From NCBI RefSeq assembly GCF_028869115.1, contig NZ_CP079800.1:1860001-1924000 (forward strand): a stretch of DNA of 64,000 nucleotides, read 5' to 3'. Each line of letters opens with the position of its first letter. The stretch's first letter is position 1. The notes below the pieces were generated by a model. That model searched no databases. It saw only the letters and a list, made by a program, of their open reading frames with translations, and was not told where the DNA came from. Both the position numbers and the translations under genes were made by a program. This DNA comes from Pseudemcibacter aquimaris. GTDB taxonomy: Bacteria; Pseudomonadota; Alphaproteobacteria; Sphingomonadales; Emcibacteraceae. Positions 13,447 to 20,133 of this stretch are shown one piece after another.

Positions 13447-13470
13447 GCTTAATTTTCGAAAAGAATTTGA

Positions 13471-13499
13471 AAAGGCGGTCACATTGGCCGCCTTTTTTT
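13471..13499 (+). terminator. intrinsic terminator after rplI
   Basis: AAAGGCGG (13471-13478) pairs with CCGCCTTT (13488-13495) around a nine-base loop and is followed by a run of T. It ends the rpsF-rpsR-rplI transcript and separates it from the secretion cassette that begins 170 bases later. In the remaining gap (13500-13668) I see no convincing promoter match. Confidence 0.85.
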
Positions 13500-13668
13500 A
13501 TAAGTAAAATCAATACATTGTCGTTTTATTTCATTTTTTTCAATCCAATAACATTTCCCCTCCGTAGCAAAATACATGAGCTTATTTGGTCCTGTGTGTA
13601 ACGTTTCCAGAAGCATATAGGCTTTACAGCAGGGGGTAATTTTTAAACCTTTATTGGAGAATAAACTC

Positions 13669-14004
13669 ATGAAAAAACTTATTGTCTTAACCGCTATCGG
13701 AATTGGTTTCACAACTTCAGCAATCGCAGAAGAAATTTCAAAACCAAAACTGCTTGATGATGTTCAACTTGATGCATTAACAGCTGGTACTATGCCAGAC
13801 AATCCAGGATGGACTGGCCAAACACAAGCCTATCTATCACCTGGATTTGCAAAATCAAGCGCAGCAAATGGTCGCGGTATTGTTCAAGCAACTTACCTCT
13901 TTGGCAACAAAGGCAAAGGTAATGGTTCAGATCCAGACCCACTAGGTTTGGCAGCTGATCATGATCCTGGCGTTGTTGGTGGCGCGCCAGATATGTACCG
14001 TTAA
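13669..14004 (+). CDS. small secreted protein with Sec signal and TAG-type leader, predicted C39-peptidase substrate
   Basis: A 111-residue protein. The start at 13669 follows GGAGA; an upstream in-frame TTG is part of that site. Residues 1-20 form a Sec signal (MKKLIVLTAIGIGF, cut after AIA). Next comes LLDDVQLDALTAG (28-40), the LSxxxLDxVTAG-like motif seen in small exported proteins near C39 peptidases. Its AG end resembles a double-glycine cleavage site. A cut after G40 would leave 71 residues, rich in Gly, Ala, Asn and Pro, without cysteine, and ending in an acidic GGAPDMYR region. No amyloid-type repeat is visible. It is first in a cassette with an exported C39 peptidase and an outer membrane barrel. 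Function unknown; a secreted surface or signalling peptide is the main inference. Confidence 0.75.
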   Translation: MKKLIVLTAIGIGFTTSAIAEEISKPKLLDDVQLDALTAGTMPDNPGWTGQTQAYLSPGFAKSSAANGRGIVQATYLFGNKGKGNGSDPDPLGLAADHDPGVVGGAPDMYR

Positions 14005-14017
14005 TCGTTTCTTTAAC

Positions 14018-14043
14018 AGGGCTGCTATGTTTATAGCAGCCCT
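14018..14043 (+). terminator. intercistronic hairpin in the secretion cassette
   Basis: AGGGCTGCTA (14018-14027) and TAGCAGCCCT (14034-14043) are perfect 10-base arms with a six-base loop. The stem starts 13 bases after the stop of the small secreted protein and ends 20 bases before the peptidase ATG. No T-run follows, so complete termination is unlikely. It probably protects the upstream message or reduces downstream expression, giving more substrate than processing enzyme. Confidence 0.75.
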
Positions 14044-14063
14044 ATGTTCTTTCAGGTGCAACC

Positions 14064-14588
14064 ATGAAGCAATTACTTTTAGCAATATCTGTTATCCTGC
14101 TTTCAAATACTTCTCATGCCTTTGGTGCGACAAAATCACTTAAAGAAATTCGTGAAGAAGACATCATCATGCAACAATGGGATACCAGTTGCGCAGCGGC
14201 CGCGATGGCCACCATTCTTACATACACATTCAATGACCCTGTTAGTGAACATCAAGTCGCAACGGGACTCCTGCAAAAAACAGAACCATTAAAAGTCAGA
14301 TATCGTGGCGGTTTTTCAATGTTGGATATGAAGAAGTACGCAACTGAAATTGGTTACGGTGCATCAGGTTTTTATGACCTAAACCTTTCTGACATCAAAT
14401 ACTTTAACACCCCTATAATCCCACTTCGCATCCATGGATATAACCATTATGTGGTTTTTAACGGATTAGACACCAAAGGTAACATAATGATTGCTGATCC
14501 CGCCTATGGGAACCGCACTATGAGTAAGAATGAATTCGAAAATGCATGGATTGCAGGTATCGCCTTTGTCATCAAAAGGAGGCAATAA
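14064..14588 (+). CDS. exported C39-family peptidase, FapD-like
   Basis: A 174-residue stand-alone papain-fold peptidase of the C39 (double-glycine leader) type with a Sec signal (1-19, cut near SHA). The catalytic set is visible: oxyanion Gln37/38 and Cys43 in MQQWDTSCAAAAMATIL, His128 in YNHYVVFNG and Asp145 in IADPAYGNRTMS. Classical C39 domains are fused to ABC exporters on the cytoplasmic side; this one has no transporter part and should act in the periplasm, like FapD of the Pseudomonas Fap system. The residue after the catalytic Cys is Ala rather than the usual Gly. It is coupled to the barrel gene by a TAATG overlap. Confidence 0.87.
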   Translation: MKQLLLAISVILLSNTSHAFGATKSLKEIREEDIIMQQWDTSCAAAAMATILTYTFNDPVSEHQVATGLLQKTEPLKVRYRGGFSMLDMKKYATEIGYGASGFYDLNLSDIKYFNTPIIPLRIHGYNHYVVFNGLDTKGNIMIADPAYGNRTMSKNEFENAWIAGIAFVIKRRQ

Positions 14589-15577
14589 TGAAGCAGTTCA
14601 TTTATATTACGCTTTTTTCATTTGGCCTTTCCCAAATATCCTTTGGCCAAACACCCGAAGAATTGGAAGCCGAACTAAAAGCACAACAAGAAATAAACAG
14701 CCTTTTAAAAGATAGAATAGAAGCACTTGAAGCTGAATTAGAAGGTCGAAAATTACAACCACCGCAAGATAGAACGCTCAGCCCTGCAGTAAGTGTTGCA
14801 TTAGACGACCCGGAAATGGACCGTGCATTAGAACGCGCTTTACAAAGAAACGGAGCAGCAGTATTAGCGCCATATGTTTTTGAAATAACACCAACTCTTT
14901 CATGGTCACATACCGGAAGAGATGCATTACAAAACAAAGAAACAATTTATGGCGCCTCTATCGATACCAGACTAGGTCTTCCTGGTGGTTTTATGATCGG
15001 TGCTACTCTTCCTTATTTTGACAGAAATATTGATGATCGCGGCAGCAACAATGGAATTGGTGATACGTCATTCACATTATGGAAATCATTTATATCCGGA
15101 TCAAACAACCCATCAGTCGTTGGAAGCGTACGTTACAGTATTCCGTCAGGTGATGATTTTCGTGAAGCAGGTATTCCGCTGGGATCTGGGTTTCATAAAA
15201 TATCTGGACGTCTTTCAGCAGTGAAAAGAATTGCACCGCTCGCGTTTTATGGCAATGTTTCATACACACATCACTTTGAAAACACAGTCAATGATATTGC
15301 CGCGAAACGTAGTGGTATTTTTGGCATTGGCGGCGGCGTTAATCTGGCGGCGACACCGGAAATCACCTTAAGCACCGGACTAAGTTTCACTTTTGAAAAT
15401 GAACTTGAAATAGATAGTATTAAAATTGATAACTCAAAATCAACGGTTGGTATCGTTTCATTAGGTACCGGTATTATATTAAATAGAAATGTATTTTTAT
15501 CATTATCGGCAGGTTTTGGCATTACCGATGATGCACCGGACGTGATCGTTAGCGCATCTTTACCGATACGTTTTTAA
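14588..15577 (+). CDS. outer membrane beta-barrel with N-terminal coiled coil, FapF-like transporter
   Basis: A 329-residue protein that starts at 14588 after AAAGGAGG. Residues 1-20 are a signal peptide (cut before QTPEE). Residues 22-54 form a heptad-rich coiled coil, and 55-85 a linker with DPEMDRALERALQRNG. From about 85 to the end, alternating amphipathic strands rich in aromatics and glycine predict a beta-barrel, closing with SASLPIRF, whose terminal Phe is typical of outer membrane proteins. The plan (signal, periplasmic coiled coil, barrel of the MetA-pathway/porin type) is that of FapF, which exports amyloid subunits. Context with the C39 peptidase supports a secretion pore for the small upstream protein. 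Confidence 0.8.
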   Translation: MKQFIYITLFSFGLSQISFGQTPEELEAELKAQQEINSLLKDRIEALEAELEGRKLQPPQDRTLSPAVSVALDDPEMDRALERALQRNGAAVLAPYVFEITPTLSWSHTGRDALQNKETIYGASIDTRLGLPGGFMIGATLPYFDRNIDDRGSNNGIGDTSFTLWKSFISGSNNPSVVGSVRYSIPSGDDFREAGIPLGSGFHKISGRLSAVKRIAPLAFYGNVSYTHHFENTVNDIAAKRSGIFGIGGGVNLAATPEITLSTGLSFTFENELEIDSIKIDNSKSTVGIVSLGTGIILNRNVFLSLSAGFGITDDAPDVIVSASLPIRF

Positions 15578-15688
15578 AAAATCTCATAATGACCTACATT
15601 CCAATCCCTTCCCCAACAATTTATTTAACATTGAATTTGGGTAGCATTCCTTGTACCCCTAATCATAATAAATTATCGGGAGCCATTC

Positions 15689-17080
15689 ATGCGTCATTTA
15701 TTTATCGCATCACTTTGTATATTCACTGCCATCATCCAAACAAATGCCCAAACCATTGAGCAGGCAACACATTTGATGGATACATGGCTTGATGCGCAGA
15801 AAGACTATAATAAATGGCCCAGTATTTCCGTTTCATTTGTGAATGATCAGGAACTTATCTATTCTCGTTCATTCGGGGGTGCGACTCCTGATACGCTTTA
15901 CCGTATTGCGTCCAATTCGAAATTATTTACAGCGCTCGCCATATTGAAATTGCGTGATCAAGGTAAATTAAACCTTGATGATACGATTGAAAAACATATC
16001 GACTGGTACAATATCAAACAAAAATTTGACCAGTCCGATCCCATTACCATTAAATCATTACTAACCCACAATAGCGGCCTGCCCTATGAACCGGATCTTC
16101 CCTATTGGTCATATCGTGACGGATATCCTTTTCCGTCACTTGACGAACTAAAACAGGGTACATCGAAAATCGAAACGCTTTATCCGGTGAATGAAAAATA
16201 TCAATATTCGAACCTTGGGTTTATTTTGCTTGGTCAAATTATCGAAAGCGCATCGGGTGTGAGCTATCATCAATATGTACACGAACAAATCATTGAACCG
16301 ATGGGCCTTGAAAATACATTTACCAATGTGGACGCAAGTAAACACGGTAATGAACTGGCGGTTGGATACGGTAAATTAGACCGCAAACAAACCCGAATGG
16401 AAGTTCCCTTTATCGATACAAAGGCAACAACTTCCGCCGCCGGAATTTCATCATCAGCAAATGATCTTGCCAAATTCCTGATGTGGCAATTGCGTGCTAT
16501 TGATGGCAAGGGTGATGAAGTCCTTAAACAAGGCACATTCCGTGAAATGACCCGCGCCCACGCCGTGGATACGGGATCAAGCATGGATGTGGGTTATGCG
16601 TTTCGCACAAATTACCGCGGCGGCAAATCATATATCGGCCACGGCGGTGTCATGACTGGCCACACATCACAAACGACCATTGAACCGGGTGCAAAACTGG
16701 GGGCGGTTACTTTAATGAACACCCATGATACATCACCACTGCAAATCAATTATGTGATGATGGATGTCTTTGGCCCCGTGTTAAAAGCGGATAATGCCCC
16801 ATCCCAATATGATTTCAGTGAATATCAAGGGTTTTATGATAACCAACCATGGGGCGATGAAAGCTATATTATGCAATGGGGTGACAACCTGATTTCATTT
16901 TATCTTTCAAGCAGCAACCCCATAAACGCCATCACCAAATTCCGCCATTTAGAAGGTGATAAATTCATCCGTCTTAATGATGATGGGACAGAAGCCGATG
17001 TCATGACGTTCCTGCGCAATGAAGTTGGCAAGGTTATGAGTTATAAAGACCAGAGCGATTATATTTACAAGAAAGATTAA
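15689..17080 (+). CDS. periplasmic serine hydrolase of the beta-lactamase/PBP superfamily
   Basis: A 463-residue protein with a signal peptide (cut after TNA, residue 20). It has the SxxK motif S75-N-S-K78 and the YxN motif Y173-S-N175, while HGGVMTGH in the last third takes the place of the third (KTG) motif. The C-terminal 100 residues form an extra small domain. Members include esterases, D-aminopeptidases and peptidoglycan-modifying enzymes; the substrate is not predictable. It has its own leader and RBS (CGGGAG). It follows the secretion cassette on the same strand after 111 bases, but I see no evidence it belongs to it. Its stop overlaps the stop of the convergent kinase. Confidence 0.82.
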   Translation: MRHLFIASLCIFTAIIQTNAQTIEQATHLMDTWLDAQKDYNKWPSISVSFVNDQELIYSRSFGGATPDTLYRIASNSKLFTALAILKLRDQGKLNLDDTIEKHIDWYNIKQKFDQSDPITIKSLLTHNSGLPYEPDLPYWSYRDGYPFPSLDELKQGTSKIETLYPVNEKYQYSNLGFILLGQIIESASGVSYHQYVHEQIIEPMGLENTFTNVDASKHGNELAVGYGKLDRKQTRMEVPFIDTKATTSAAGISSSANDLAKFLMWQLRAIDGKGDEVLKQGTFREMTRAHAVDTGSSMDVGYAFRTNYRGGKSYIGHGGVMTGHTSQTTIEPGAKLGAVTLMNTHDTSPLQINYVMMDVFGPVLKADNAPSQYDFSEYQGFYDNQPWGDESYIMQWGDNLISFYLSSSNPINAITKFRHLEGDKFIRLNDDGTEADVMTFLRNEVGKVMSYKDQSDYIYKKD

Positions 17081-19479
17081 TGTTTCGCGGAAAAGAGCAT
17101 TGATGCCGTGGTTCCCTTACCCAGCTCACTTTCGAGTTTGAATATTCCACCGTGAAGGTCCACCAACTTTTTAACAATCGCGAGGCCAAGGCCCGTACCC
17201 TCTTGATTAAGGTCATATTCGCCGCGGGCCTGTTCAAACGGCATCATCACATATTTTAATCTATCCGGTGCAATGCCGATGCCGGTGTCTGATATCTGAA
17301 TTTGAATGGTATCATCAACTAGTACATGTGTATTGATTTTAATTTCGCCGCCATTATCCGTGAATTTAACAGCATTCGACAGTAAATTTATCACGACCCT
17401 GTCAATGGCATGTGGATCACCATAAAGCGTCAGGTTTTCGTCATTATCTTCATTGTCATAAATAATTTTAATATCTTTTTGTTCGGCTTCGGGGCCAAGC
17501 ATCATGATGGATTTTTCAATGGTGTCTTTTATTGAAAAATCTTCTTCGTTTAATGTCCATTTTCCGGCTTCGATTTTTGATAAATCCAGTATGTCATTGA
17601 TAACAGTGGCTAAATGCTGTCCGCTATAATTAATGTCTTTGATATAATCTTTATAGGTTGCCTCTTTTTTATTCCAGTCAGCATCCATTAACATAACATC
17701 GGAAAAACCGATTATGGCATTAAGCGGCGTTCTGATTTCGTGCGACATATTGGCAAGGAATGTTGATTTTGCCTTATTTGCTTTTTCGGCTGCTTTGCGG
17801 GAACGGATAAGTTTTTCTTCGGTTTCTTTCCTTCGTTTAACTTCGTTTCTTAATTTATAATTCCAAAGCATAATGATCAGAATTACCGCAGCAAAAGATA
17901 AAACGATCCTTACCAGCAATTCATAATTCGGTTGCTCTTCAATGCTTAACGATAACCAATCTCTGGTGATTTCCGCTTTTTCTCTTGGGGAAATTGAATT
18001 GACGGCCTTTTTCATGATACTGGCCAGCAACGGTTTTTCCGTGCTTACACCCATCGAATAATCCAAGATATACGGTGTGTCACCCACGACTTTAATCTGT
18101 GAATAGCCGCCGTTAACAATATGATAAGCTGTAAATGGAATACCGCCTACATAAGCATCTACCTCACCGGTACTGACCAGATGTAATGCTTCAGGGATAT
18201 CTGCGACTTCGACGATTTCGACTTCGGGATAATCTTCGCGGATCATCTTAACCGCAGCAATTCCAGCAACTTGTGCAATCTTTCGCCCACTAAGAGCCTC
18301 CATATTGGCAAATATATCATTGCCATCACGCGCGAATATTAGCCTCGCCGATGAAAATATCGGCTCTGTAAATGATAAAACCTCTCTTCTTTCCGGCGTG
18401 GAAATAATCAGCGGCAAAAGATCAACCTCACCGCGACCTAACATTTCCATTCCCTCTGCCCAGGTTTCATTGCCAACCCATTCAAACGGTATGCCTAATT
18501 CTTCACTGAAAATTTTTAAATAATCCCCAATCATGCCATCTATTTCACCATCTTCATGCACTATTGAAAATGGTTGCGTAGTAGAAAAAGCGACCCTGAC
18601 TTTATCTGTGTTCGAAAGCCATTTAAGTTCTTCCTGTGTAAGGGCAATGCGCCTTTCTACCAAAGAATGTAAATTCCATTTATTGGCAATAAATTGATAT
18701 TCATTTTGGCTAATGGCATCTTTTGCCTTTTCCAGAATTGACCTTAAAATCGGCCAATCATTTCGAATACCAACACGTAATCTACTTTCGTTACCTGTAT
18801 CCGGGAAAAACCGATCACCAATAATTTCAATGTTATCTTCGGGGCTTTCACCAATATAATATTCTGCAACCGGTTTTAAGACGGCCGCAATATCCGTTTC
18901 ACCTGATTTTAATGCGCTTAAGGATTCTAATATATTATTAAACCTGACGATATCCAGTTCCGGATAACGCGAACTATATGTAATATCCGGGACACCGCCC
19001 TTAACAACACCAATCCTTTTGCCACGCAAATCATTTAAACTTTCGATCCTGTCTGATCCCCCTAACCCGATATAAATCATCGGTGAATTGACGTAAGGTT
19101 CGGTGAAAATCAGGAATTTTTCCCGTTCAGTATTACGGATAATTGATGGGGCAACGTCGATTTCTTTTCTTTCAAGCATGCCCAAAAGATCACCCCAAGA
19201 GTATCCATTGGCATATTCAACGTTTATGCCTGCTTTTCTTGCTAATAAATTGAAATAATCGACAGAAAAACCGGCGGCCCCGCCATTTTCATCTGTGAAA
19301 TCAAACGGATAAAAACTTCTTTCATTCGCAGCTCTTATCACAGGATTTTCTGCAATCCATTGCTGCTCTTCCTCTGTTAAGTTTAAATCAACAGAGCCCT
19401 GAGAATATACATTAGAATAACCTAATATTACGCACAAAAACACGAACAGGCTATTTCTAAACGTCACTACTTCCACCAT
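17077..19479 (-). CDS. BvgS-like sensor histidine kinase with two periplasmic solute-binding domains
   Basis: An 800-residue kinase. An N-terminal signal/membrane segment is followed by two consecutive SBP_bac_3 (venus-flytrap) domains, roughly 35-275 and 285-510. One transmembrane helix (about 518-540), a short coiled coil, a HisKA domain with H580 in SHEIRTPLNAIIGFSD and a HATPase with LLSNAVKF, DTGIGI and GTGLGLAI complete it. This is the sensory plan of BvgS/EvgS, but the receiver and Hpt domains found there are absent and no response regulator gene is nearby. The start at 19479 has AAGAGA nine bases upstream; in-frame starts at 19488 and 19548 are possible. The ligand is probably a small molecule such as an amino acid. 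Confidence 0.88.
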   Translation of the reverse strand: MVEVVTFRNSLFVFLCVILGYSNVYSQGSVDLNLTEEEQQWIAENPVIRAANERSFYPFDFTDENGGAAGFSVDYFNLLARKAGINVEYANGYSWGDLLGMLERKEIDVAPSIIRNTEREKFLIFTEPYVNSPMIYIGLGGSDRIESLNDLRGKRIGVVKGGVPDITYSSRYPELDIVRFNNILESLSALKSGETDIAAVLKPVAEYYIGESPEDNIEIIGDRFFPDTGNESRLRVGIRNDWPILRSILEKAKDAISQNEYQFIANKWNLHSLVERRIALTQEELKWLSNTDKVRVAFSTTQPFSIVHEDGEIDGMIGDYLKIFSEELGIPFEWVGNETWAEGMEMLGRGEVDLLPLIISTPERREVLSFTEPIFSSARLIFARDGNDIFANMEALSGRKIAQVAGIAAVKMIREDYPEVEIVEVADIPEALHLVSTGEVDAYVGGIPFTAYHIVNGGYSQIKVVGDTPYILDYSMGVSTEKPLLASIMKKAVNSISPREKAEITRDWLSLSIEEQPNYELLVRIVLSFAAVILIIMLWNYKLRNEVKRRKETEEKLIRSRKAAEKANKAKSTFLANMSHEIRTPLNAIIGFSDVMLMDADWNKKEATYKDYIKDINYSGQHLATVINDILDLSKIEAGKWTLNEEDFSIKDTIEKSIMMLGPEAEQKDIKIIYDNEDNDENLTLYGDPHAIDRVVINLLSNAVKFTDNGGEIKINTHVLVDDTIQIQISDTGIGIAPDRLKYVMMPFEQARGEYDLNQEGTGLGLAIVKKLVDLHGGIFKLESELGKGTTASMLFSAKH

Positions 19480-19643
19480 CAAAGCCATTCTCTTAAATAA
19501 GGTTTGTCCCCATGGTATACTTAAAGGTGTATAAAGCCTTAATCGCAATAGTAATCAAAAGTCATTAACATATCAATAACGCCCCAAGAAGGTTATAAAA
19601 CCCAAGGCAAATATAATTATAAGAAATATTCTAGCCCTCATCT

Positions 19644-19703
19644 GTCATGCTGAACTTGTTTCAGCATCTCGTGCAAGAGACTCTGAAACAAGTTCAGAGT
19701 GAC
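19644..19703. repeat. inverted pair of 27-base hairpin repeats (family B)
   Basis: Unit 1 (19644-19670) begins GTCATGCTGAACTTG and unit 2 (19677-19703) is its inverted relative ending AGTTCAGAGTGAC. Each forms an 8-base stem around a five-base loop. The units differ at two stem pairs, and both members of each pair have changed so pairing is kept. The outer ends are GTCA. Unit 2 runs into the 3' end of the DUF4288 gene and supplies its stop codon. It is probably a dispersed non-coding repeat of the REP type. Confidence 0.85.
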
Positions 19704-20023
19704 GAACCTTGTTTCAAAGCAACTCCCCATCTTAAATGAGAGTATACTTCCATCCCCTCAAAAATCTCTTTTTCATATAATGCTTGGACATCCAGTATTT
19801 TAATAAATTCCCAAGAGACATTATCGCCATCAGGGTTTTTATATTCACAGATATTTTCTCTTATATCTTTTTCAGCTATTATTTTAGCTTGAACTTCACT
19901 ATCAGCTTTATAAATCCTGGTACTTTCTTCATACAAAGTTTCATCATCTGTATTCTTATTGCTAACATTACAAATCAATTCAATTTTCACTGAATACCAT
20001 TCTTTGTCATTATAATTTGTCAT
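19694..20023 (-). CDS. DUF4288 domain protein
   Basis: A 109-residue cytoplasmic protein. The layout matches DUF4288: an opening beta strand (WYSVKIELICNV), YEESTRIYKADSEVQAKIIAEKD in the middle, and GMEVYSHL near the end. No function is known to me for the family. The final residues, GSSL and the TGA stop, are read out of a family B hairpin repeat, so the C-terminus was probably altered when the repeat arrived. The gene is AT-rich and stands alone between the kinase and dnaB. Confidence 0.7.
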   Translation of the reverse strand: MTNYNDKEWYSVKIELICNVSNKNTDDETLYEESTRIYKADSEVQAKIIAEKDIRENICEYKNPDGDNVSWEFIKILDVQALYEKEIFEGMEVYSHLRWGVALKQGSSL

Positions 20024-20133
20024 TAAGGATTCCCAATATTCAATTGTGAAATAAAAAAGCTATTATTTTTTTGTTTAGAATAATAAATAAATCGAATATA
20101 ATTTTTTTCAACAATACTTTTTCGAGTTTTAGA

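Follow-up and report, generated by a model that had tools for sequence, protein, structure and literature searches.

The three genes between positions 13669 and 15577 of the window (the whole 64,000-nucleotide stretch of Pseudemcibacter aquimaris DNA that was analysed) are in all likelihood a compact relative of the FapD-FapF pair that sends a small peptide out of the cell by a two-step route; its spread was probably horizontal. Judged by analogy, the trio belongs to a compact group of export cassettes that resemble FapD/FapF, carry small double-glycine peptides as cargo and would work like the Fap and nap systems. The pairing of C39 peptidase and barrel, and the principle behind it, are already known. 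The kind of system is known as well, because a set of C39 peptidase, FapF-like protein and small peptides has been printed for Neisseria (PMC11798529). In the largely open-access literature searched, we found no description of the compact loci as a group, of their leader consensus or of the leader in FapE. The locus contains the following features:

13669..14004, + strand: cargo precursor gene P0001, 111 aa (open reading frame, Sec-type signal by a crude rule, leader score)
13729..13788, + strand: leader segment within P0001, with L(-12), L(-7), L(-4), A(-2) and G(-1)
14018..14043, + strand: 11-bp GC-rich hairpin between the cargo and peptidase genes (-20.1 kcal/mol, z -4.1)
14064..14588, + strand: predicted stand-alone C39 (double-glycine) peptidase P0002, 174 aa, with N-terminal signal (profile, fold, catalytic residues)
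14588..15577, + strand: putative FapF-type outer-membrane barrel P0003, 329 aa, with signal (profile, sequence, model)

An earlier sequence-only reading had proposed this gene order, and the three open reading frames do lie as it placed them, including the one-base overlap of the P0002 stop codon with the P0003 ATG (TAATG). The hairpin sets the cargo gene apart from the P0002/P0003 pair and has only a weak U-run behind it; an RNA family search found no match. It is possibly an attenuator or an mRNA stabiliser.

P0002 scores 65.8 bits against the Pfam C39 profile (cut-off 22). Its best NCBIfam match is FapD with 110.4 bits, well short of the cut-off of 330, and it reaches 94 bits against NCBIfam FilB (cut-off 475). 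All 15 aligned sequences, P0002 among them, share residues Q37, C43, H128 and D145, and the top structural match of the model (mean pLDDT 79.4) is 6mpz, a double-glycine protease with bound leader peptide (E 4.5e-8). By profile, modelled fold and catalytic residues, P0002 is a C39 double-glycine peptidase for which cleavage is predicted.

P0003 matches Pfam PF13557 and scores 37.8 bits against NCBIfam FapF (cut-off 700). Its model (mean pLDDT 69.9) comprises a coiled-coil helix at residues 23-53, a linker, a plug helix at residues 77-87 and 12 strands, and the accessible parts of two papers describe FapF itself as coiled coil, linker, plug and 12-strand barrel (PMC5557850, PMC6173795). FapF is the top Foldseek match of the model (E 7.6e-16), and VIA-align superimposes the two with Z 25.8 and rmsd 2.4 over 241 aligned residues, plug included (model 77-329, FapF 88-406). 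The conserved PTG motif of FapF reads PSG in the window barrel; a PTG triplet occurs somewhere, not at a constant position, in 7 of the 19 barrels of the compact group. From the model, P0003 appears to share the exporter fold of FapF, with its coiled coil, plug helix and barrel of 12 strands, export itself being putative. The proposal that peptidase and barrel match the roles of FapD and FapF is in keeping with the intact catalytic residues of the one and the FapF-like model of the other.

On the question whether P0003 is a generic porin, sequence and model both speak for a FapF-like protein, with the COG4313 channel near in fold. This nearness makes room for a different reading, in which P0003 is an uptake channel of the COG4313 type that takes in a hydrophobic compound, P0002 serves to mature or gate this channel, and the small protein is a periplasmic accessory. 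The PF13557 match and a VIA Z of 24.5 against the uptake channel 4rl8, near the value for FapF, fit with an uptake channel, but at the sequence level P0003 matches solved FapF chains at E 2e-10 and 4rl8 at only 0.82. The coiled coil and plug helix of the model also argue against uptake, as does the leader, which sits on small proteins whose bodies vary among loci. We therefore consider an uptake channel very improbable, and read P0003 as a FapF-type exporter.

The cargo precursor P0001 consists of a Sec-type signal (residues 1 to about 20), the leader EEISKPKLLDDVQLDALTAG at residues 21-40 and a predicted product. The last 13 residues of the leader are LLDDVQLDALTAG, and the predicted cut falls after G40, between LLDDVQLDALTAG and TMP. 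This cut after AG would leave 71 residues, the product size that had been proposed. With L(-12), L(-7), a hydrophobic residue at -4 and G/A-G at -2/-1, the window cargo carries the C39 substrate pattern; the accessible part of the report on LahT, a crystallised double-glycine protease, lists positions -12, -7, -4, -2 and -1 as those recognised (PMC6363468). The cassette thus shares the C39 fold and these leader positions with the ABC exporters LahT, ComA and PCAT1, but there the peptidase is a domain of the ABC transporter, whereas the window peptidase is free, has an export signal and adjoins no transporter. P0001 is an orphan, with no family match in Pfam or NCBIfam and no relative among 386 other genomes of the class. 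Its predicted product is acidic (pI 5.4, 10% N+Q), and a repeat search was negative, in agreement with the earlier description of a cargo that lacks amyloid repeats.

The leader recurs in the loci most closely related by their C39 peptidase, 19 in all. A 13-column score matrix was built from 14 compact-locus leaders, the window excluded, and applied with each related set removed in turn, which is a fairer test than counting motif positions. In 18 of the 19 loci, a small ORF with a signal peptide (SP-positive, as assigned by a crude hydropathy rule) outscored all 192 SP-positive ORFs of a background of 147 kb from the window's genome and congeners, whose maximum ranged from 6.7 to 7.9. In the exception, L141, the stretch begins 533 bases before the C39 ORF, at a contig end. 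The window leader has the lowest score of the 18 (10.5, with a background maximum of 6.7 in its test), the best scores of the other 17 loci being 14.0 to 37.7. Leaders were tabulated for 24 of 26 ORFs, dropping L010 (its leader being that of L008) and L148 (off register). They have L/M(-12), M/L(-7), V/I/L(-4), A/G(-2) and G(-1) in 24/24 and D(-6) in 23/24, counts that are partly due to selection because the ORFs were chosen by motif. The D at -11 of the window leader is found in only 3 of the 24.

Beyond the predicted cut, cargo bodies vary from set to set, and none of ten bodies scored above cut-off in Pfam or NCBIfam. Cargo and peptidase do not always form one operon, since the two genes lie on opposite strands in L005, L006, L142 and L144. 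Several leader-bearing cargo genes can accompany one peptidase-barrel pair, with four in L149 (2632-4416) and three each in L143 (5821-7016) and L144 (3036-4591), and several of these cargos are rich in Ala/Ser/Thr/Gly. Candidates for further leader-bearing cargos elsewhere in the window's genome, from two pattern scans with 16 and 5 matches, were rejected: besides the window's own cargo, no match combined a signal and a leader within a small ORF. Both patterns required D at -6 and A/G-G at -2/-1, and variants could escape them.

At the order level, P0002 has a match at E 1e-10 in 44 of 297 genomes, the window's included. A relative of P0003 lies on either strand in 42 of 45 fetched order-level stretches (absent in L066, L073 and L077), and one was seen in 36 of 40 further stretches from class and phylum (none in L158, L169, L174 and L175). 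This recurrence, like that of the leader-bearing small ORF in 18 of 19 loci, speaks against a chance arrangement. Two layouts can be told apart: compact, and extended, with genes between C39 and barrel or with the barrel on the other strand. In a midpoint-rooted tree of 93 C39 sequences (148 columns; 37 of its 89 forks are open), a branch with SH-aLRT 97 separates the 19 sequences, the window's among them, from the rest. A barrel adjoins 17 of these peptidase genes; L149 has a gap of 269 nt, and L148 is labelled 'far' by way of an over-long barrel ORF. True FapD (L179, 401 bits) and the Fil-like set are placed elsewhere. Because the compact C39 group stands apart from true FapD, the earlier description of a 'reduced' Fap route needs changing, and the idea that the trio is a decayed Fap operon was rejected. 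Among these 19 loci, distances between the peptidases correlate with those between the barrels (Mantel r 0.893, a value reached by 0 of 5000 permutations), a correlation that can stem from shared ancestry alone.

Three of 297 order-level genomes have a compact locus; for the class the figure is at least 9 of 387, and for the phylum at least 2 of 397, counts that include the window's genome each time and rest on 18 of 24 places fetched and treed for the class and 31 of 51 for the phylum. They are also present in assemblies named Thiocapsa, Lamprocystis (two), Thiodictyon, a gammaproteobacterium and a Desulfobulbaceae bacterium. Co-occurrence of the trio in related genomes, which the sequence-only reading had proposed to check, is thus seen for peptidase, barrel and leader-bearing small ORF in related and distant genomes alike, and the cargo types it had asked about are small exported leader ORFs (18 of 19 loci) with bodies that differ between sets.

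Some gene neighbours in these loci were noted by reading. In the two order-level compact loci, the barrel is followed by another exported protein, coiled-coil-like and about 490 aa long (L041 2833-4317, L042 7128-8579), and the cargo has a large gene with a P-loop-like start beside it. In the Chromatiaceae loci L008, L009 and L010, a response regulator and a sensor kinase, possibly regulating the system, are divergent from the C39 gene. Matches in a plasmid collection (Cupriavidus, Acinetobacter, Aeromonas) comprise two records without an annotated trio and two others that carry no annotation. The 6.3-kb mobilizable plasmid pTR11_4 of Acinetobacter sp. TR11 (L197) has a lone C39 peptidase and two hypothetical genes, with no annotated barrel.

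The host genome is a single contig of 3.37 Mb, in which the trio has rpsF, rpsR and rplI as 5' neighbours and a serine-hydrolase-like gene as 3' neighbour (names by sequence reading). All 12 congeners lack the trio, in that none has a P0002 match at E 0.001, one of them being only 53% complete. Among the 11 congeners in which rplI was located, the hydrolase gene follows it directly in 3 and dnaB in 5, and for the remaining 3 the fetched stretch does not tell which gene follows. Inspection of the window by eye shows the rplI terminator hairpin retained and the trio occupying the gap before the hydrolase; the position of the cassette between rplI and hydrolase is clean. Since the congeners lack P0002 and the trio fills the rplI-hydrolase gap, its probable history is arrival as a single unit, or else loss from the congeners. 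No useful flanking or internal repeats were found at the trio as insertion marks, and no second relative of P0002 in its own genome. Phage carriage was rejected because a scan of viral contigs found no relative. The rplI-dnaB interval is variable in the genus (window 13447-20070, L201-L211), the window version consisting of trio, hydrolase and sensor kinase.

Together, the data suggest a model for the cassette. Sec would deliver the cargo precursor to the periplasm, where the signal peptide would be removed. The leader, now N-terminal, would form a helix whose L(-12), L(-7) and L(-4) dock it into the peptidase groove, and P0002, judging by spacing and fold, would cut after Ala-Gly. If the barrel behaves like FapF, the 71-residue peptide would then leave through it after the plug helix moves, and the coiled coil probably gathers the substrate. 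The route from Sec through leader cleavage to the barrel is the one that the sequence-only reading had sketched; the evidence supports it as a reading in which processing and export are inferred.

Pseudomonas Fap has the same kind of periplasmic C39 peptidase and plugged 12-strand barrel with coiled coil, and the same leader grammar in FapE. Unlike Fap, the window has no gene between peptidase and barrel, which overlap instead, scores only 110 bits against FapD (cut-off 330) and 38 against FapF (cut-off 700), belongs to a separate C39 group and has as its cargo a small orphan peptide free of amyloid repeats. Family models and the repeat search found no FapB or FapC match and no amyloid repeats within the cassette. 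The FapE model had no match in the window's own genome, and control genomes gave no match either. The earlier statement that the other Fap counterparts are missing hence stands for the cassette, which has no FapE gene or FapB/FapC repeats, and is weak for FapE across the genome. By the features tested, the trio is not a member of a Fap operon, because it has no adjoining FapE or amyloid repeat and its FapD and FapF scores fall a long way short of the cut-offs.

Of the systems in print, the one closest to the cassette is the Neisseria nap island (NapP, NapF, NapA-C), which likewise combines a C39 peptidase, a FapF homologue and small double-glycine peptides, and for which periplasmic cleavage followed by secretion has been proposed (PMC11798529). 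This comparison was made at the level of the printed description, in whose main text the word 'Sec' was not found. The island differs from the cassette in its additional napR, napI and napH and in having napP and napF at opposite ends (PMC11798529). Bacteriocin-like or self-lytic peptides have been proposed for nap, and the same machinery could serve such a cargo here. The shared parts (PMC11798529) and the diversity of cargos among loci speak for this. However, the three Naps are cationic peptides of 16-36 aa (PMC11798529) and the window product is acidic, with 71 aa and a pI of 5.4; moreover, no immunity or holin gene was recognised in the cassette by reading. We regard a bacteriocin-like cargo as doubtful.

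Alternatively, the machinery may export a subunit of the surface or matrix that corresponds to the Fap fibre proteins but has no repeats, which we rate as a tentative possibility. Fibre subunits are what the nearest machinery exports, according to the accessible part of PMC5557850, and several cargos of the compact group are Ala/Ser/Thr/Gly-rich and present in multiple copies (L149, L143, L144). Against this stand the window cargo itself, in which no repeats were found and N+Q make up 10%, and the lack of a FapB or FapC family match. The acidic, repeat-free product suits neither the bacteriocin-like nor the surface or matrix model well. The preferred reading of a two-step export cassette is common to the two.

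The leader also bears on the substrate of FapD. The accessible part of a 2017 paper places the C39 peptidase FapD in the periplasm, states that FapC secretion depends on the active-site Cys of FapD, and calls the target of the enzyme unclear (PMC5557850). There, the Fap proteins are said to be without canonical C39 sequences, though GG/GA motifs are noted in FapE, and only FapE lacked N-terminal peptides, over the first ~70 residues (PMC5557850). In the accessible part of a 2018 paper, the substrate is yet to be determined, with a hint at FapE, and fapD/fapF homologues colocalise in five further phyla (PMC6173800). We found no later answer in the largely open-access literature searched.

In the extended loci, the gene at the FapE position, directly after C39, encodes an exported protein with leader spacing as in the compact group. 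We examined 72 such loci, of which 16 had no ORF meeting the position rule and were not counted. The final FapE-type motif matched 56 of 58 FapE-position ORFs in 54 of 56 countable loci (misses L066 and L169) and none of the 558 other SP-positive ORFs with a length of 120 aa or more; it was tuned on these same loci, and its previous version matched 42 of 72. A matrix trained only on loci of the order gave scores of at least 13 to 21 of 22 held-out E-position ORFs, versus 3 of 230 others, although only 9 of the 22 exceed the best other (23.0, L174). The three high-scoring others look like further substrates. The same matrix gives the window's own cargo -0.9, so the FapE-type and compact-group leader dialects differ.

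True Fap loci, defined as those over the FapD cut-off, have the leader motif in 23 of 23 FapE-position proteins and in 0 of 97 other SP-positive ORFs, the latter including the protein upstream of FapD in L218. All 23 loci belong to a single genus, to which 21 of its 25 genomes contributed, and they do not count as independent; L231 is the same place as L179, which was in the tuning set. The FapE-position protein of L218 was checked as FapE (341 bits, cut-off 250). The FapE leader lies just behind the signal peptide in the register L(-12), E(-8), L(-7), L(-4), G(-2), K/R(-1) and typically ends in IELKDQELAQLRG(K/R)Y; K or R at -1 departs from the usual double glycine. FapE-type leaders are found in L179 and L218-L240 (true Fap) and in L038-L081 and L150-L179 (extended). 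Because leaders of C39 grammar sit in FapE of 23 of 23 Fap loci, the sequences point to FapE as a candidate substrate of FapD. L174 and L176 have extra exported proteins with an RGG-type leader outside the defined FapE position, e.g. MSRDELDGARGGF and ISTEELAEARGGS, and one peptidase may therefore serve several substrates.

The Fil system of Acinetobacter (NCBIfam FilA, FilB, FilC) has C39 beside a barrel as well, and FilA-like proteins with a leader; the window differs in its separate C39 group and low scores (94 of 475 bits for FilB, 20 of 630 for FilC). A (L/M)xDxxLxxxTGQ-type leader lies at residues 23-39 of the FilA-like proteins in 5 of 6 Fil-like loci (not L166), and this motif, tuned on the Fil-like loci, matched 1 of 1049 elsewhere. 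As a third dialect, (L/M)xDxxLxxxTGQ followed by (A/D)G is seen in L160, L161, L163, L164 and L169. The FilA-like protein of L163 scores 40 of 220 bits for FilA and is over the cut-off for DUF6160.

We think it rather probable that free periplasmic C39 peptidases and FapF-type barrels make up a general Sec-fed route for double-glycine substrates, separate from type 1 secretion. Its dialects would be L(S/T)DxxMDxVTAG in small peptides, L(K/S)DxELxxLRG(K/R/G) followed by (Y/F) in FapE, and the TGQ type in FilA-like proteins. If this is true, the substrate of FapD would be FapE, cut near residue 40, and the window cassette would represent the route in its minimal form. The leader, which came to light in the cassette before it was seen in FapE, offers an exact and cheap test of the FapD substrate. 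The minimal three-gene form would be a convenient model of FapF-type peptide export, free of the complications of amyloid, and the cassette is a possible tool for the secretion of small peptides from Gram-negative cells. Beyond this, the leader motif offers a means of finding exported peptides of unknown function that family models leave unnamed.
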